Shown here: positions 31,537 through 45,216 of the stretch, one piece after another
Layout: every line of letters begins with the position of its first letter
How positions within the stretch are numbered: position 1 is the stretch's first letter
Assembly (NCBI RefSeq): GCF_008727875.1
Contig: NZ_VTWS01000001.1
Location: forward strand, 930,001 to 994,000
Direction of reading: 5' to 3'
Length of the DNA: 64,000 nt
Origin: Larkinella humicola
Lineage (GTDB): Bacteria; Bacteroidota; Bacteroidia; Cytophagales; Spirosomataceae
Program-made: the position numbers and the translations under genes
The notes under the pieces: model-generated
Databases searched by the model: none
What the model saw: only the letters and a program-made list of their open reading frames with translations
Told to the model about the DNA's origin: nothing

Positions 31537-31893
31537 ATGAATGCCTATCGCCCCGGCCTGCACATCCTGTCGACCTTTGAAGCTCCGTTGTCTGCTCTCA
31601 CGGACGTTGGGCGGTGTCGCACGGGCTTCGACCAGCTGATTCAGGAACTGGAACTGGCCAAGGTCGGCGAGGTGTACTATTCGTTTCCCAATGGCGGTTT
31701 TACGGCGGTTCTCTGCCTGACCGAATCGCACGTGTCGATTCATACCTGGCCCGAAAACGGGCTGGCGACGTTCGACGTTTTCCTGTCCAATTTTCAACGC
31801 GATAACAGCCCGAAAGTCCGACGGTTTTATGAAGAATCCCTGCGTCTGTTCGGGGCTACGGCGGTTTTAAACGAACAGGAAATCATCCGCTGA
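31537..31893 (+). CDS. speD: S-adenosylmethionine decarboxylase proenzyme (short prokaryotic type)
   Basis: 118 aa from the ATG at 31537. The key motif is ESHVSIHTWPE, whose Ser is the self-cleavage site that becomes the pyruvoyl cofactor; upstream GGFTAVLCLTESH fits the class 1B enzyme. It makes decarboxylated SAM, the aminopropyl donor for spermidine synthesis. The C-terminus (SLRLFGATAVLNEQEIIR) is normal. DUF4178 starts 14 bp downstream, and a spermidine-synthase-like gene follows in the same run, so donor and transferase are supplied together. Confidence 0.92.
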   Translation: MNAYRPGLHILSTFEAPLSALTDVGRCRTGFDQLIQELELAKVGEVYYSFPNGGFTAVLCLTESHVSIHTWPENGLATFDVFLSNFQRDNSPKVRRFYEESLRLFGATAVLNEQEIIR

Positions 31894-31907
31894 CGCTGTC
31901 CGAAACC

Positions 31908-33182
31908 ATGCCCACCGACCCATCCTTTTCTCCCACCGCGTTCAACTGTCCCCACTGCCAGGCCCCGGTTCCGGGCTATGACCTCTCCGAGAGTTCGTAT
32001 TTCTGCTGCGGCCAGTGCTACACCTATTTTCTGTATGGCGATACCGGCCCGCAACGCATCATCATGGCCTTTCCGCCCATGCCCACCCCGCCCGCCCTGC
32101 CGCTCGGGGCCGAAGGGTACATCGACAGCAAATGGGTTCGGGTGACGGGCTACCTACGCAAGCGGGAAATCCAGTACGAAGAAAGCTGGATGGAATACGT
32201 CCTGATGACCAAAGAAGGTCCGCACCAGATGCTGGCCGAATTCAGGGGTCACTGGATGCTGGTTCGGTCGGTGGACGAAACCTATACCGAAAAGCAAAAC
32301 GCTAAAGTCTCGGATCAGGACCGCGAATACGCCCTGTACAACCGCTACAACTGCCTCATTCTGAACGCTGTTGGTGAGTTTTACTGGAACATTGTTGATG
32401 ATACGGAACTGACCATTTCGGAGTATATTCACCCGCCCTATCTGGTCAGCCGGGAAGCCAGCAGCCAGAAAACCGAGTGCTACAAGGCTGAATACAAAAC
32501 GCCACAGGACATTTCGAAAGCCTTCGGACTGGCCGATGCGGCTTTACCGAATCCCGTTGGCGTTGGGGCTATCCAGCCCAATCCGGCGGTCGAAAAACGG
32601 GAACCAGCGATCTGGTTGACGACCCGGCTGGCGTTGCTGATCGTAGCTGTTCAGGTGCTTTTTTACTTCCTGAAACCGCAGAAAACCCTTCTCAATCAGG
32701 AGTTTACCTGGAACTCGGATTCGACGGTGCAAAGCCGTGCCCAACCCATCGTATCGCCCTCGTTCGACATCGACGGCCCGGCGGCTGTGGCGATTCAGTT
32801 AAAGGTGAATGTCGACAACAACTGGCTTGAATTACCGGTCAGTCTGATTAACGAAAGCACCAACCAATCCTACGAGTTTACGCGCATTGTTGAATATTAC
32901 CACGGTGTTGAATACGGCGAAAGCTGGCAGGAAGGGGCGCAGGACGACGAAGCCATTTTGTCACGCATTCCGTCCGGGCGCTATCACCTCAACCTATATC
33001 CGTCGTCCGAAGGGAAAAACCGGGTTGTTTTCCAGCTTAAAGTGATTCAAAATCCGATTCTGTATTCCAACCTGTTTATCATGCTGGCCCTGCTGGCGAT
33101 TTACCCGATCATCCTGTTTTTTCAGCGCAATCTGTTCGAACAGAAACGCTGGGCCGAGAGTGATTTTGGACCGACGGGTTAG
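31908..33182 (+). CDS. DUF4178 membrane protein with N-terminal zinc ribbon
   Basis: 424 aa. A zinc-ribbon-like element (Cys14, Cys17, Cys33/34, Cys37) opens the protein. A DUF4178 domain (about 65-195) follows with GYIDSKWVRVTGYLRKREIQ, SWMEYVLM and NAVGEFYWNIVDD. Two membrane spans (about 237-256 and 388-405) enclose a roughly 130-aa loop, probably periplasmic, with a DIDGPAAVAIQLKVNVDNNW beta-rich start. DUF4178 has no known biochemical activity. It recurs with DUF350 and SAM-decarboxylase/spermidine-synthase genes in many bacteria (from memory). Confidence 0.85.
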   Translation: MPTDPSFSPTAFNCPHCQAPVPGYDLSESSYFCCGQCYTYFLYGDTGPQRIIMAFPPMPTPPALPLGAEGYIDSKWVRVTGYLRKREIQYEESWMEYVLMTKEGPHQMLAEFRGHWMLVRSVDETYTEKQNAKVSDQDREYALYNRYNCLILNAVGEFYWNIVDDTELTISEYIHPPYLVSREASSQKTECYKAEYKTPQDISKAFGLADAALPNPVGVGAIQPNPAVEKREPAIWLTTRLALLIVAVQVLFYFLKPQKTLLNQEFTWNSDSTVQSRAQPIVSPSFDIDGPAAVAIQLKVNVDNNWLELPVSLINESTNQSYEFTRIVEYYHGVEYGESWQEGAQDDEAILSRIPSGRYHLNLYPSSEGKNRVVFQLKVIQNPILYSNLFIMLALLAIYPIILFFQRNLFEQKRWAESDFGPTG

Positions 33183-33193
33183 TTTCAATCCGG

Positions 33194-33302
33194 TTTTGCC
33201 CCTAAATCCCGAAGCGTCGGCCCGGCTTGAAGGGGACTTTTGCACCTAGATTATTTAAGTCCCCTTTAGGCCGGGCTGACGCTTCGGGATTTAAGGGCAA
33301 AA
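33194..33302. repeat. Palindromic repeat, CCCCTAAATCC family (long-stem form)
   Basis: 46-nt arms (33194-33239 and 33257-33302) with 4 mismatches and a 17-nt loop. The arms contain the extra GAAGCGTCGGCCCGGC block not present in the short-stem copies. It sits inside the polyamine-like run, between the DUF4178 gene and the 63-aa peptide gene, where it could reduce transcription of the distal genes or stabilise the upstream mRNA. Confidence 0.85.
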
Positions 33303-33361
33303 CACGAGAACCACAACATACTATCCGAACATAAAAAAACCTTTTTGTCAATGTAACCATC

Positions 33362-33553
33362 ATGAAAAACCTCGCTAAAATCAAATTCCTGGTACTGGCG
33401 GGTGGTTTGCTCCTGGCCGGCTTCACCTGGGCCGGGATGTCGGGCAGCCGGTTGCTGGGCGACGATCTGGAAAGTGTCGACAAACTCGACAACTACAAAA
33501 ACGGATCGGGAGGGCGGCATTCGGGCCGACGCAGTTATTTTTACCACAAATAA
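33362..33553 (+). CDS. Small exported or membrane-anchored peptide (63 aa)
   Basis: ATG at 33362. A basic start (MKNLAKIK), a hydrophobic segment about 8-24 (FLVLAGGLLLAGFTWAG), then a 38-residue polar tail with an acidic middle (LGDDLESVDKLDNYK) and a Gly/Arg/His/Tyr-rich end (GSGGRHSGRRSYFYHK). No homologous family recognised. It lies 12 bp before the DUF350 gene inside the operon, so it is very probably a real gene. Whether it is a partner, chaperone or substrate of the system is unknown. Confidence 0.65.
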   Translation: MKNLAKIKFLVLAGGLLLAGFTWAGMSGSRLLGDDLESVDKLDNYKNGSGGRHSGRRSYFYHK

Positions 33554-33565
33554 ACCCTGTTTCTC

Positions 33566-33781
33566 ATGGACTTGTCTACGCTGAAGTACATCATTCCCTC
33601 CGTCGTTTATTCGTTTGTCGGTATCCTGATTCTGGTCATCAGTTTCGTCATTATCGAGAAAATTGCCCCCGAAAACCTCTGGAAAAAGATTGTCGATGAA
33701 GAAAACGTCGCGCTTTCCATTCTGGCAGCCGCTTTCATGATTGCGGTGGCGATTATCATCAGTTCCGCCATCCATGAGTAA
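33566..33781 (+). CDS. DUF350 family membrane protein
   Basis: 71 aa with two spans: about 9-27 (IPSVVYSFVGILILVISFV) and about 48-66 (LSILAAAFMIAVAIIISSA), separated by a charged loop KIAPENLWKKIVDEENV. This is a single DUF350 unit (YjfL type, where two units are often fused). It overlaps the next gene by 8 bp. DUF350 proteins often accompany PspA, DUF4178 or polyamine-modifying enzymes; their molecular role is unknown. Confidence 0.85.
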   Translation: MDLSTLKYIIPSVVYSFVGILILVISFVIIEKIAPENLWKKIVDEENVALSILAAAFMIAVAIIISSAIHE

Positions 33782-35297
33782 CCCGGATAACCGACACCGG
33801 CACCTGTTGTTGTTGCTGTCGGTTTTTGTGATTGCGACCTGCGGACTTATCTACGAATTGGTGGCCGGAACGCTGGCGAGCTACCTCCTGGGCGATTCGG
33901 TAACACAGTTTTCGACCATCATCGGCGTTTATCTGTTTTCGATGGGCATCGGTTCGTGGCTGTCCAAATACCTCGACGGTAATCTATTGAAGTGGTTCAT
34001 CCGCATCGAAATTCTGGTCGGCATTGTGGGCGGTGGCAGTGCTCCCCTGCTCTTTGTGTTGTTCGAATACGCGGCTTCGTTCCGGTTGGTTCTGTATTCG
34101 CTGGTGAGTTTGACCGGGATTCTGGTGGGGCTGGAAATTCCGCTGCTGATGCGGATTCTGGAGAACCAGCTCGCCTTCAAAGACCTGGTTTCCAGAGTTT
34201 TTACCTTTGATTACATTGGGGCCTTGCTCGCTTCGCTGATCTTCCCGCTTGTTCTCGTTCCCTACCTCGGCCTCATCCGGACGTCCCTGTTTTTTGGATT
34301 GATGAACGTCGCCGTCGCCTGGTTTCTGCTGCACCAGTTTCCCGAAACCAAACCGTATCGCCGGTCGCTGGTCACGGCCATTCTCCTCTCCTCATTTCTG
34401 CTGATCGGCGGTTTTGTTTACGCCGAACAGATCATGACCTACACCGAAAATCTGACGTTTCAGGACAAGGTAATTTACAGCAAAAGCACGTCGTACCAGC
34501 GCATCGTGCTGACGGCCAACAACCGCGAGTTACGGCTTTTCCTCAACGGCAACCTCCAGTTCAGTTCGGCGGATGAATACCGCTACCACGAAGCGCTCGT
34601 TCACCCGGCTTTGCAGGCCCTTCCGAAAGCCAGCCGGGTGCTGGTGTTGGGCGGAGGAGATGGTCTGGCGGTTCGGGAAATCCTGAAATACCCGCACATC
34701 CAATCTATTACACTCGTCGACCTTGATCCGGGCATGACGGATCTTTTTCGCCGGAATGAGGTACTCCTTAAACTGAATAACCGTTCCTTACTTTCGCCCA
34801 AAGTACAGATTATCAATACCGATGCTTACAATTTCGTCCGGCAGGACACCGCCCGTTACGACCTGATTGTCATTGATTTTCCCGATCCATCGAATTACTC
34901 AATTGGTAAACTCTACAGCACGTCCTTCTACCAGGAACTCAACCGCCTGATTCAACCGGGTGGTCTGGCTGTGGTGCAATCGACCTCTCCCTACATTGCC
35001 CGGCAGTCGTTCTGGTGCATTCGAAACACGATTGCTGCCACCGGTTTTCAGACCATTCCCTACCACGCTTATGTGCCCTCGTTTGGCGAATGGGGTTTTA
35101 TTCTGCTGTTGCGAAACCACCACTGGCGGGGTGAAGGGCCGTTGCCGAAGGGACTCCGGTTTGTCAATGCGCGAACCATCCACGACATGCTGAATTTTCC
35201 GCCCGACATGGCCGAGGTTCCGACCGAAATCAACAAGCTCAACAACCAGGTGCTGGTGCATTATTTCGAAGATGACTGGACGCCCTACGCCCACTGA
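33774..35297 (+). CDS. speE: Membrane-anchored polyamine aminopropyltransferase (spermidine-synthase-like)
   Basis: 507 aa from the ATG at 33774; the start overlaps the DUF350 stop. The N-terminal half (about 8-215) holds seven hydrophobic segments. The C-terminal half is a class I SAM-type transferase with GGGDG (293-297), TLVDLDPGMTDLF, and the catalytic IDFPDPSNYSIGKLYS (Asp368/Asp371) typical of spermidine synthases. It should move the aminopropyl group of decarboxylated SAM to an amine acceptor at the membrane. The acceptor may not be putrescine (inference). Confidence 0.87.
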   Translation: MSNPDNRHRHLLLLLSVFVIATCGLIYELVAGTLASYLLGDSVTQFSTIIGVYLFSMGIGSWLSKYLDGNLLKWFIRIEILVGIVGGGSAPLLFVLFEYAASFRLVLYSLVSLTGILVGLEIPLLMRILENQLAFKDLVSRVFTFDYIGALLASLIFPLVLVPYLGLIRTSLFFGLMNVAVAWFLLHQFPETKPYRRSLVTAILLSSFLLIGGFVYAEQIMTYTENLTFQDKVIYSKSTSYQRIVLTANNRELRLFLNGNLQFSSADEYRYHEALVHPALQALPKASRVLVLGGGDGLAVREILKYPHIQSITLVDLDPGMTDLFRRNEVLLKLNNRSLLSPKVQIINTDAYNFVRQDTARYDLIVIDFPDPSNYSIGKLYSTSFYQELNRLIQPGGLAVVQSTSPYIARQSFWCIRNTIAATGFQTIPYHAYVPSFGEWGFILLLRNHHWRGEGPLPKGLRFVNARTIHDMLNFPPDMAEVPTEINKLNNQVLVHYFEDDWTPYAH

Positions 35298-36924
35298 CCC
35301 GCCCGAATCGCCGGGCCGCCGACAGTTTCTGGAGCAAGCAGCCGGACTCGGTTTAACTGCTATGCTGGCCGGATCGGCGGGTTTGAGTGCCTGCCAGCCG
35401 TCATCTCTCCAACACATCAAGGGCGGCATGATCGGAGCAAATCATGCGGTCGGCCATTTGCTGCGGAATCCGGAAAAACTGCCCCCGCCGACGCAGACAC
35501 TGAAAACGGAAGTCCTGATTGTGGGCGGTGGCGTTGCGGGTTTGTCGGCCCGGCGCTGGCTCTGGCAGCAGGGCATGCGGGACGTGTTGCTGGTGGAATT
35601 GGCGGATCGGCCGGGCGGGAATGCCGTCAGTGGTCAGAATGCCGTATCGGCCTATCCGTGGGGGGCGCATTATCTACCGATTCCTGATCTCCGCAATCGC
35701 GAACTGCTTGATTTCCTGACCGAAAGCCAGGTCATTACCGGTTTTGATGCAGGCGGTTTACCGGTTTACAATGACTACTACCTGTGCCACGATCCCGAAG
35801 AACGGCTGTTCATCAACGGACACTGGCAGGAAGGGCTGGTGCCGGAAGTAGGGATTTCGGCCGACGACAAACAGCAGATCGTCCGGTTTTTTAAACTCGT
35901 AGACGAACTGAAACAAGCCAAAGGAAGGGATGGCCGGGATGCCTTTGCGATTCCGCTCGAGGGGTCTTCGACGGATGACCGCTTCCGGCAGTGGGATGCA
36001 GTTTCGTTCGAAACGTATTTGAACGAGCTGCAGTTTACCTCACCGTATTTGCGCTGGTTTCTGGAATACGGTTGCAAGGATGATTACGGAACGACTCTGG
36101 CCAACACCTCAGCCTGGGCCGGTTTGCATTATTTTGCCGCCCGAAAAGGCGTTGCAGCCAATGCCGAAGCCAATGCGGTGCTGACCTGGCCGGAAGGCAA
36201 TGCGTTCCTAATTAATCAACTGGAAGAGCAGGCAAAGTCGCCCATCCAATCCAACCGGCTCATTTTCAGTGTCGAAGAAACCGATCTGGGCGTTCGCATT
36301 CTCAGTTACGATGTGGCTCAGAAAACGACCATTGCGATTCAGGCCCGGAAGGTGTTGCTGGCGACGCCCCAGTTCATTACGAAGAATCTAATCAAAAACC
36401 GGGTAATCGCCGGATTTGAATACGCTCCCTGGCTGGTAGCGAATCTAACCGTCAATGGATTGCCGCAGAGCCGGGGCATGCCACTCTGCTGGGATAACGT
36501 GATCTACGGAAGCCCCTCCGTCGGCTACGTCACGGCTACGCACCAGCACTTGAAAGCGACGGACCGGAAAGTGATTACCGTGTATTGGCCGCTGGTTCAG
36601 GAACCGCCCGATGTAGCCCGGCGCAAAGCGTACCAAACGCCGTATGAAGACTGGGTATCGGTGCTGGTGGCCGATCTGGAAAGGGCGCATCCCGGTGTTA
36701 GTGACTACATTACGACCATCGATTGCTGGGTTTGGGGGCACGGGATGATAGCGCCCACGCCCGGGTTTATCTGGGGTGAAGCCCGCCAAAAAGCCGCCAC
36801 TGCCATCCATAACAAACTCTATTTTGCCCACTCGGACCTGAGCGGTATTTCGATTTTTGAGGAGGCCTTTTACCAGGGCATTCGGGCTGCCAAAGAAATT
36901 TTGGGGCAAAAATCCTCCGCCTGA
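35272..36924 (+). CDS. FAD-dependent oxidoreductase, Tat/lipobox leader
   Basis: 550 aa; the ATG at 35272 overlaps the previous gene by 26 bp. The leader has a twin-arginine-like GRRQFLEQAA (16-25), a hydrophobic stretch and LSAC (Cys41). The dinucleotide fold is LIVGGGVAGLSARRWL (GxGxxG, 85-90), with ADRPGGNA completing the FAD site and a C-terminal YFAHSDLSGISIFEEAFYQG closing the FAD fold, as in amine oxidase/phytoene desaturase relatives. With SAM decarboxylase and aminopropyltransferase upstream, oxidation of a polyamine product on the periplasmic face is an attractive guess. The reaction is not established. Confidence 0.82.
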   Translation: MTGRPTPTDPPESPGRRQFLEQAAGLGLTAMLAGSAGLSACQPSSLQHIKGGMIGANHAVGHLLRNPEKLPPPTQTLKTEVLIVGGGVAGLSARRWLWQQGMRDVLLVELADRPGGNAVSGQNAVSAYPWGAHYLPIPDLRNRELLDFLTESQVITGFDAGGLPVYNDYYLCHDPEERLFINGHWQEGLVPEVGISADDKQQIVRFFKLVDELKQAKGRDGRDAFAIPLEGSSTDDRFRQWDAVSFETYLNELQFTSPYLRWFLEYGCKDDYGTTLANTSAWAGLHYFAARKGVAANAEANAVLTWPEGNAFLINQLEEQAKSPIQSNRLIFSVEETDLGVRILSYDVAQKTTIAIQARKVLLATPQFITKNLIKNRVIAGFEYAPWLVANLTVNGLPQSRGMPLCWDNVIYGSPSVGYVTATHQHLKATDRKVITVYWPLVQEPPDVARRKAYQTPYEDWVSVLVADLERAHPGVSDYITTIDCWVWGHGMIAPTPGFIWGEARQKAATAIHNKLYFAHSDLSGISIFEEAFYQGIRAAKEILGQKSSA

Positions 36925-43980: not shown

Positions 43981-45216
43981 CTACCAATCGACGACGGAGC
44001 CATCCAGCGCATTGTACGTTTCCGGATTTTTCCAGTCGTGGCCGATTTTGTCTTTGAGCTGAGTCTCATCGAGTTCGACACCCAGGCCCGGCCCCGACGG
44101 AATCAAAACCGTTCCGTCTTTTTCCAGTTTAAACGGTTTTTTCAGGTAGCCCTCGCCCAGCGAAACCTGCTCCTGCACCAGAAAATTGGGTACGCTCGCA
44201 GCCAAATGCAAGCCGACCGCCAGCGAAATGGGCCCCATCGGGTTGTGCGGGGCAATCGGCACGTAATAGGCTTCGGCCATACCGGCAATGATCCGCCCTT
44301 CCGTAATTCCGCCCGCGTGGCAAAGGTCCGGCTGGATGATGCTGGCGGCTCCTTTTTCCAGAATCTCGCGGAAGCCCCATTTCGTAAAAATCCGCTCGCC
44401 GGTGGCAATCGGCAAATGGGTTCCGCGCGCGATGTCCACCATCGTATCCACATTCTGCGCCTGACACGGTTCTTCGATGAACATCGGTTGATACGGTTCC
44501 AGTCCCTTGATCAGCACCTTGGCCAGTTGGGGCGAAATGGCGCCGTGAAAATCGATGGCAATGTCCATTTCCGGCCCACCGGCTTCCCGAAGCGAGGCAA
44601 AATTATCGATTGCATACTTCACAAACTGGGGATTCTCCACAATATTGGCCGGATTTTTCTTGGCAATCCCGGTTTTGATCACCGTGTAGCCTTCCGCCTT
44701 CCGTTTTTTCATGTCCTCGGCATTGCTCGCCCGGCCATAAATTCGCACGCGGTCGCGGGTGGGACCGCCGAACAGTTCGTAAACCGGTACGTTCAGCAGC
44801 TTGCCTTTGATGTCCCATAACGCGTGATCGATCCCGCTCAGGGCGCTCGTCAAAATGGGACCACCCCGGTAAAACGCGTGCCGGTAAATGGCCTGCCAGT
44901 GGTGAATAATGTGCCGGGGGTCTTTGCCAATCAGGTACGGCTCAACTTCCTTGATGGCGGTTTGGATCGTCAACGCCCGGCCTTCCAGCAGCGGTTCGCC
45001 CAGCCCCACCACGCCCACGTCGGTGTGTATTTTCAGGAAAATCCAGCGGGGTTTCACCAGGAACGTTTCCAGTTTGGTGATTTTCACCTTGCCATACTCC
45101 CGGAACTGGCCGGGGCTGGAGGCATAGGATGACTGGGGTAAAGCCGTGATCGCGGTGCCCGCTACGCCCAGAACCGACTGGATGGCGGTGCGTCGGGAAA
45201 TACTCGATTTCTTCAT
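43981..45216 (-). CDS. dgoD: D-galactonate dehydratase-like enzyme of the enolase superfamily, Tat-exported
   Basis: 411 aa. The N-terminus KKSSISRRTAIQSVLGVAG is a twin-arginine signal, unlike cytoplasmic E. coli DgoD. The enolase-superfamily barrel has metal ligands in DIAIDFHGAIS (Asp), MFIEEPC (Glu) and TGERIF (Glu). PDLCHAGGITEGRIIAGMAE and APHNPMGPI, with the catalytic His, match galactonate dehydratases. It should convert D-galactonate to 2-keto-3-deoxygalactonate, here in the periplasm. Closest family assignment is strong; the exact epimer accepted is inferred from dgoK and dgoA downstream. Confidence 0.85.
   Translation of the reverse strand: MKKSSISRRTAIQSVLGVAGTAITALPQSSYASSPGQFREYGKVKITKLETFLVKPRWIFLKIHTDVGVVGLGEPLLEGRALTIQTAIKEVEPYLIGKDPRHIIHHWQAIYRHAFYRGGPILTSALSGIDHALWDIKGKLLNVPVYELFGGPTRDRVRIYGRASNAEDMKKRKAEGYTVIKTGIAKKNPANIVENPQFVKYAIDNFASLREAGGPEMDIAIDFHGAISPQLAKVLIKGLEPYQPMFIEEPCQAQNVDTMVDIARGTHLPIATGERIFTKWGFREILEKGAASIIQPDLCHAGGITEGRIIAGMAEAYYVPIAPHNPMGPISLAVGLHLAASVPNFLVQEQVSLGEGYLKKPFKLEKDGTVLIPSGPGLGVELDETQLKDKIGHDWKNPETYNALDGSVVDW

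Follow-up and report, generated by a model that had tools for sequence, protein, structure and literature searches.

Which amine receives the aminopropyl group in the membrane-associated operons built around a seven-span SpeE protein? We investigated this question for a locus of Larkinella humicola, at positions 31537..36924 of a 64,000-nt window (the whole stretch of DNA that was analysed) in a genome of 7.86 Mb. The combination of a seven-transmembrane (7TM) or MFS-type SpeE fusion, DUF350, DUF4178 and an S-adenosylmethionine decarboxylase (AdoMetDC) has been published before as an operon without an assigned product. What is new here is the 63-aa peptide: judged from its sequence and that of its relatives it is the informative part, a predicted membrane-anchored tail that follows a C-terminal lysine rule. 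We propose that this lysine is the acceptor of SpeE, to which we give an even chance. The original prediction for this locus had mentioned the peptide only in passing and had held that the acceptor is not supplied here. We disagree on this point, as the locus may encode the acceptor itself.

The C-terminal lysine of the tail protein

The 63-aa product (33362..33553, plus strand) is a single-span protein, in which one N-terminal span is followed by a tail of about 35 residues that is rich in Gly, Ser, Arg and His and ends in FYHK. The codons for this conserved Phe-Tyr-His-Lys terminus, the lysine being the proposed acceptor, lie at 33539..33550 on the same strand. Scanning named genomes we found at least 535 stretches encoding SpeE relatives, and 80 loci were retained. 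We observed that the tail ends in His-Lys in all 88 loci of one subtype (the HK subtype). These tails comprise 85 distinct sequences, every one with Lys at position -1 and His at position -2, and Tyr or Phe occupies position -3 in 77 of them. A strict scan for an aromatic residue followed by HK matched 73 of the 88 loci plus one spurious site elsewhere, and a relaxed motif recovered all except L045, where the tail forms the C-terminal part of a fusion with DUF4178. As a control we counted open frames ending in HK: they were found within 1.4 kb before speE in 88/88 loci, after speE in 0/88 and on the opposite strand in 1/88. The background frequency of a C-terminal Lys was 14.4% among 867 other open reading frames (ORFs).

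When all 7TM-SpeE loci are regarded, 113 of 115 tails from at least three phyla end in Lys (L042 and L102 are one genome counted twice), and beyond the HK subtype this is the only constant residue of the tails. All tails of 14 loci drawn later (L144-L157) end in Lys as well, nine of them as HK. Lipoproteins beside divergent SpeE proteins (L049, L052-L055) end in GFGK, SFGK or GGK, with PspA present in L052-L054; by eye, lipoproteins account for five of the tails outside the subtype. For plasmid loci we observed the ends PSHK (Novosphingobium), RHGK (Gemmatirosa), NRVK (Tritonibacter), ESGK (Ensifer), SSGK (Alteromonas) and GSHK (Burkholderia stagnalis). The histidine was also considered as acceptor and set aside: it is constant in the HK subtype but replaced by Gly or Val in many other tails, where the Lys stays. 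Both exceptions to the lysine end, L050 and L051, terminate in SYGG, and both carry a glutathionylspermidine-synthetase-like (YgiC-like) ATP-grasp gene beside SpeE.

Tail and DUF4178 are fused in two loci overall (L045 and L157). The DUF4178-DUF350 cassette is duplicated in two loci, and L081 shows two readable tails, both ending in YHK. In L085 the DUF4178 protein itself ends in DFYFHK, resembling the adjoining tail peptide.

Tail ends beside ATP-grasp ligases

For contrast we analyzed 19 ligase loci of the phylum and two E. coli tails. E. coli YgiB ends in SMGG and YjfM in HWGG; they adjoin YgiC and YjfC, which are peptide-spermidine ligases by RefSeq naming and in the accessible part of Pederick et al. 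2023. A Gly/Ser-rich exported tail protein was found near the ligase in 16 of the 19 loci, and every one ends in G, S or A. Together with the two E. coli proteins, 0 of 18 recognisable Gly/Ser-rich tails beside ligases end in Lys. A strict GG rule was rejected, the observed ends being GG (L168, L170-L173, L050, L051), SS (L158-L162), GS (L164, L166) and HA (L163, L165). The tail protein of the window cluster ends in Lys, unlike the small-residue end of the YgiC systems, and no GSP_synth ATP-grasp gene was detected among the eight cluster and flanking proteins scanned. Such a contrast is what we would expect if a lysine amine is the target of the aminopropyltransferase and the C-terminal carboxylate that of the ligase. 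Elsewhere, the host genome encodes one glutathionylspermidine-synthetase-like ligase on another contig (G000:C1:201612-202742), with no recognisable tail protein adjoining.

Donor site and sidedness of SpeE

The SpeE protein of the window (33774..35297, plus strand) matches NF002956 with 675 bits (cut-off 472) and is the sole match in the host genome. Its AlphaFold2 model consists of seven helices and a SpeE fold, that is, a multi-span N-terminal domain fused to a SpeE domain as in the 7TM/MFS-SpeE family. We take Q242, Q262, D267, E268, Y271, H272, G293-G297, D316, D350, D368 and D371 to be the donor and catalytic motif positions. Each of them is 97-100% conserved in 115 sequences, except for one Gly at 89%, and hence the loss of donor residues, which the original prediction had named as a reason to abandon its reading, is not observed. 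The acceptor loop DFPDPSNYSIGKLY is unlike the form found in soluble enzymes.

The SpeE N-terminus and loops 2, 4 and 6 contain a mean of 2.0-3.9 Lys+Arg each, compared to 0.05-1.1 in loops 1, 3 and 5 (115 sequences; the pattern was first seen in 42). Because of this charge pattern and the seven spans, we would place the catalytic domain outside the cytoplasm. In the tail peptides the N flank of the span is more positive than the C flank in 68 of 87 cases, equal in 15 and reversed in 4, so that the tail is probably outside as well. A twin-arginine-like signal was found in 85 of 88 ORFs of the flavin adenine dinucleotide (FAD) oxidoreductase (77 RR, 8 RK), and a loose lipobox pattern fits 50. 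Of the three ORFs without a signal, one is a fragmented gene (L060), one the second fragment of another gene (L107) and one an overlong frame (L069). Taken together, these patterns support an extracytoplasmic location for SpeE, the tail and the oxidase. Within the SpeE spans E28, E79, E121 and D146 are 99-100% conserved and could serve as carriers of the cationic donor.

Other genes and distribution of the operon

Re-reading the sequence, we found the six genes at the positions described earlier, with gaps of 12-14 bp and overlaps of 8 and 26 bp apart from one inserted repeat, and profile matches agreed with the family assignments of the original prediction. All genes lie on the plus strand. 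The first (31537..31893) encodes SpeD, a homologue of class 1b AdoMet decarboxylases (PF02675, 66.9 bits; TIGR03330, 60.2 bits, under the cut-off of 75.65) and the sole SpeD match in the host genome. According to the accessible part of PMC10407285, the catalytic residues of this class are Ser63, His68 and Cys83 in T. maritima numbering. The window protein keeps Ser63 and His68, and the equivalent of Cys83 is Ser (FLSN). Its earlier designation as a SAM decarboxylase thus stands as far as homology goes, but not for the catalytic Cys, and we regard it as a putative decarboxylase by homology only, for which activity on ornithine or arginine was also considered.

The DUF4178 protein (31908..33182; PF13785, 30.5 bits, residues 66-197), the sole DUF4178 match in the host genome, combines an N-terminal zinc-ribbon-like domain with the DUF4178 domain and two spans with an intervening segment (ribbon and spans by eye). 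DUF350 (33566..33781, 71 aa; PF03994, 48.2 bits, profile positions 7-66 of 133) is of half length, containing a single one of the two two-span repeats. The last gene (35272..36924; PF13450, PF01593) encodes a predicted Tat-exported FAD oxidoreductase with an amine-oxidase fold and, in the window protein, a lipobox. It has the FAD-binding two-domain fold of monoamine oxidase (MAO) and polyamine oxidase (PAO) flavoenzymes, and its model is nearest to putrescine and monoamine oxidases. An inverted repeat (33190..33312, unstranded) with the core TCCCGAAGCG is inserted between the DUF4178 and tail genes, and further cores occur at 44585 and 51485 of the window. In Larkinella sp. C7 (L056), whose SpeE is the closest named one among the matches listed (98% identical), the gap between DUF4178 and SpeE is shorter by 134 bp, so that the repeat may have been inserted recently as a mobile element.

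The original prediction had also made its reading depend on a gene order conserved outside close relatives, and we found the gene set far beyond them. SpeE of the 7TM type lies above the cut-off in 15 of 218 evenly drawn genomes of the phylum, DUF4178 in 9, all 9 within the 15; a larger draw gave 29 positives in 395. The 80 retained loci derive from Spirosoma, Hymenobacter, Pedobacter, Mucilaginibacter, Chitinophaga, Niastella and others, including metagenome-assembled genomes labelled Oligoflexia and Sericytochromatia. With local hidden Markov models we detected DUF4178 in 88, the FAD protein in 87, SpeD in 86 and DUF350 in 76 of the 88 subtype loci, SpeD being upstream on the same strand in 84 of the 86. 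A Novosphingobium plasmid carries the same genes, individually annotated, with SpeD placed after the FAD gene, and in Gemmatirosa, Burkholderia and Tritonibacter the gene set is present with altered order or content. After the FAD gene, 73 of the 88 subtype loci encode a membrane protein of some 340-390 residues in which five His are conserved (e.g. L059:12130-13176). It gave no Pfam match above cut-off (2 members) and no NCBIfam match (3 members), and no match in the window's genome, an empty result that carries little weight; on these grounds a fixed role for it was set aside. In L055 an ion channel gene (PF00520, 6008-6802) lies between SpeD and DUF4178.

Proposed mechanism and alternative explanations

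In our proposal the operon would modify a protein tail. SpeD would produce decarboxylated S-adenosylmethionine (dcSAM) in the cytoplasm, as its homology suggests, and the tail protein would be anchored by its single span with the Gly/Ser/Arg/His-rich part outside, following the charge rule. The seven-span SpeE, with its catalytic domain predicted outside, would transfer the aminopropyl group from dcSAM to the epsilon-amine of the C-terminal Lys and yield a C-terminal N-epsilon-(3-aminopropyl)lysine. We infer this step because the lysine is kept with this enzyme, whereas tails partnered by an ATP-grasp ligase have a small residue instead. As a weaker suggestion, SpeE might also bring dcSAM across the membrane through its membrane domain, in which four intramembrane acids are nearly invariant. 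DUF350 and DUF4178 could hold the complex and present the tail, consistent with the fusions of DUF4178 to the tail. The Tat-exported flavoenzyme may then oxidise the new secondary amine, either to remove the mark or to create an aldehyde for cross-linking. This full picture of a new post-translational modification made on the outside, with SpeE as writer and donor carrier and the exported flavin oxidase as eraser or aldehyde maker, is tentative, and we think it somewhat more probable that at least one of its parts is wrong. The original prediction of aminopropylation at the membrane followed by oxidation outside is thereby partly supported: it fits our evidence, with a non-standard acceptor, and of the lipid, peptide or cell-wall linkage that it had named, the peptide is the option that we favour.

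Several observations weigh against this proposal. With an active site outside, dcSAM made in the cytoplasm has to be moved across the membrane, and 80 of 90 SpeD homologues have Ser in place of the catalytic Cys. Since it needs ATP, the ATP-grasp analogue should be cytoplasmic, so that its tail would be modified before export, which fits badly with an outside SpeE. The rule for ligase tails is a small end residue and not GG, three of the 19 ligase loci have no tail protein nearby, and Lys ends near ligases do exist: one gene beyond the tail, six loci (L158-L163) encode a second small protein, usually lipoprotein-like and without a Gly-rich tail, which ends in Lys in L158, L159 and L163 and in Gln in L160-L162 (the ends being ITVK, ITVQ, VTVQ or SEVK). 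Outside the HK subtype the tail gene was chosen while seeking Lys ends, a choice partly guided by the hypothesis, and one distant haloarchaeal SpeE fusion lacks such a tail. In MAO/PAO-type enzymes an active-site Lys near flavin N5 would be expected; in an alignment of 35 FAD proteins, whose columns were not placed on a structure, no Lys was invariant or 90% conserved. A C-terminal Lys could also serve another end, as in Braun lipoprotein.

The hallmark of this lipoprotein (Lpp) is a C-terminal Lys on a tail that is exported and held at the membrane. An L,D-transpeptidase encoded elsewhere might likewise link the epsilon-amine of the tail lysine to peptidoglycan, with SpeE acting on a separate small amine or lipid. 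The window tail bears this hallmark and five tails outside the subtype look like lipoproteins, but such an anchor does not predict that Lys goes with the aminopropyltransferase and G, S or A with Gly-rich tails beside ATP-grasp ligases, and we consider it quite unlikely. Alternatively, the tail could gate SpeE as a tethered pseudo-substrate or docking element, and a small polyamine or a membrane lipid head group would be the true acceptor. Known aminopropyltransferases use free amines, and the DUF4178-tail fusions and duplicated cassettes, with two tails in L081, suggest a fixed part of a complex. A free C-terminal Lys in every lineage would however be needless for gating, and the ligase loci carry analogous tails with a different end, which makes this explanation unlikely, if worth keeping in mind.

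We finally considered an ordinary free polyamine route, with SpeD and SpeE producing spermidine or aminopropylcadaverine, any surplus of which the flavoenzyme would degrade. The SpeE fold, its intact donor residues and the amine-oxidase fold of the flavoenzyme would agree with it. It leaves the seven spans, the tail, DUF350 and DUF4178 unexplained, and a carboxy(nor)spermidine decarboxylase (NspC) lies above its family cut-off elsewhere in the host genome, so that free triamine can probably be made without the window locus by a dcSAM-free route. In addition, Li et al. 2019 reportedly found that such SpeE fusions fail to complement a speE mutant, from which an acceptor other than putrescine is said to have been inferred, and that spermidine is absent where this type of SpeE occurs. 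Plain spermidine synthesis was set aside because of NspC and the extra operon parts, and the free route as a whole appears improbable; soluble spermidine as sole product, which would have contradicted the original prediction, is likewise unlikely. Modification of the tail lysine remains our preferred reading.

Comparison with known systems

In the window flavoenzyme an export signal is present, which distinguishes it from the bacterial putrescine oxidase and monoamine oxidase (17% identity), and SpeE differs from the soluble spermidine synthases of Thermus (1uir) and Thermotoga (1inl) by its seven-span N-terminal domain. Li et al. 2019 (Biochem J) are said to have described clusters of AdoMetDC, an MFS-SpdSyn fusion and DUF350. 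By profile searches AdoMetDC, DUF350 and DUF4178 are co-located in the window cluster, and no PspA match was found among its six proteins and two flanking ones. A PspA-linked 7TM-SpeE/DUF350/DUF4178/Ctha_1186 operon, a form marked by a PspA/CesT pair and the Ctha_1186 lipoprotein, was described by Ravi et al. 2024 (PMC11237479), in the accessible part of which Li et al. 2019 are cited. As far as these descriptions go, the window cluster resembles both in its 7TM-SpeE, AdoMetDC, DUF350 and DUF4178, lacks a PspA gene and carries the 63-aa peptide in place of the Ctha_1186 lipoprotein. It further differs by a halved DUF350, a DUF4178 protein with two spans and an additional Tat flavoenzyme; the operon description in the accessible part of PMC11237479 makes no mention of a lysine end.

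The C-terminal Lys of a co-encoded tail would therewith be the best candidate target for a group of membrane aminopropyltransferases whose relatives are spread over the named genomes. If true, this would add to the bacterial envelope a lysine modification that resembles hypusine and would provide a context for DUF350 and DUF4178. The operons would also be connected with YgiBC and YjfMC of E. coli, where an exported Gly/Ser-rich tail protein likewise stands next to an amine-linking enzyme and DUF350 occurs in the yjf operon. In E. coli the enzyme is an ATP-grasp ligase with GG-ended tails, whereas in the window it is an aminopropyltransferase with a Lys-ended tail. The aminopropyl-lysine system and the YgiC-type ligases would then form one class that caps envelope protein tails with polyamine.

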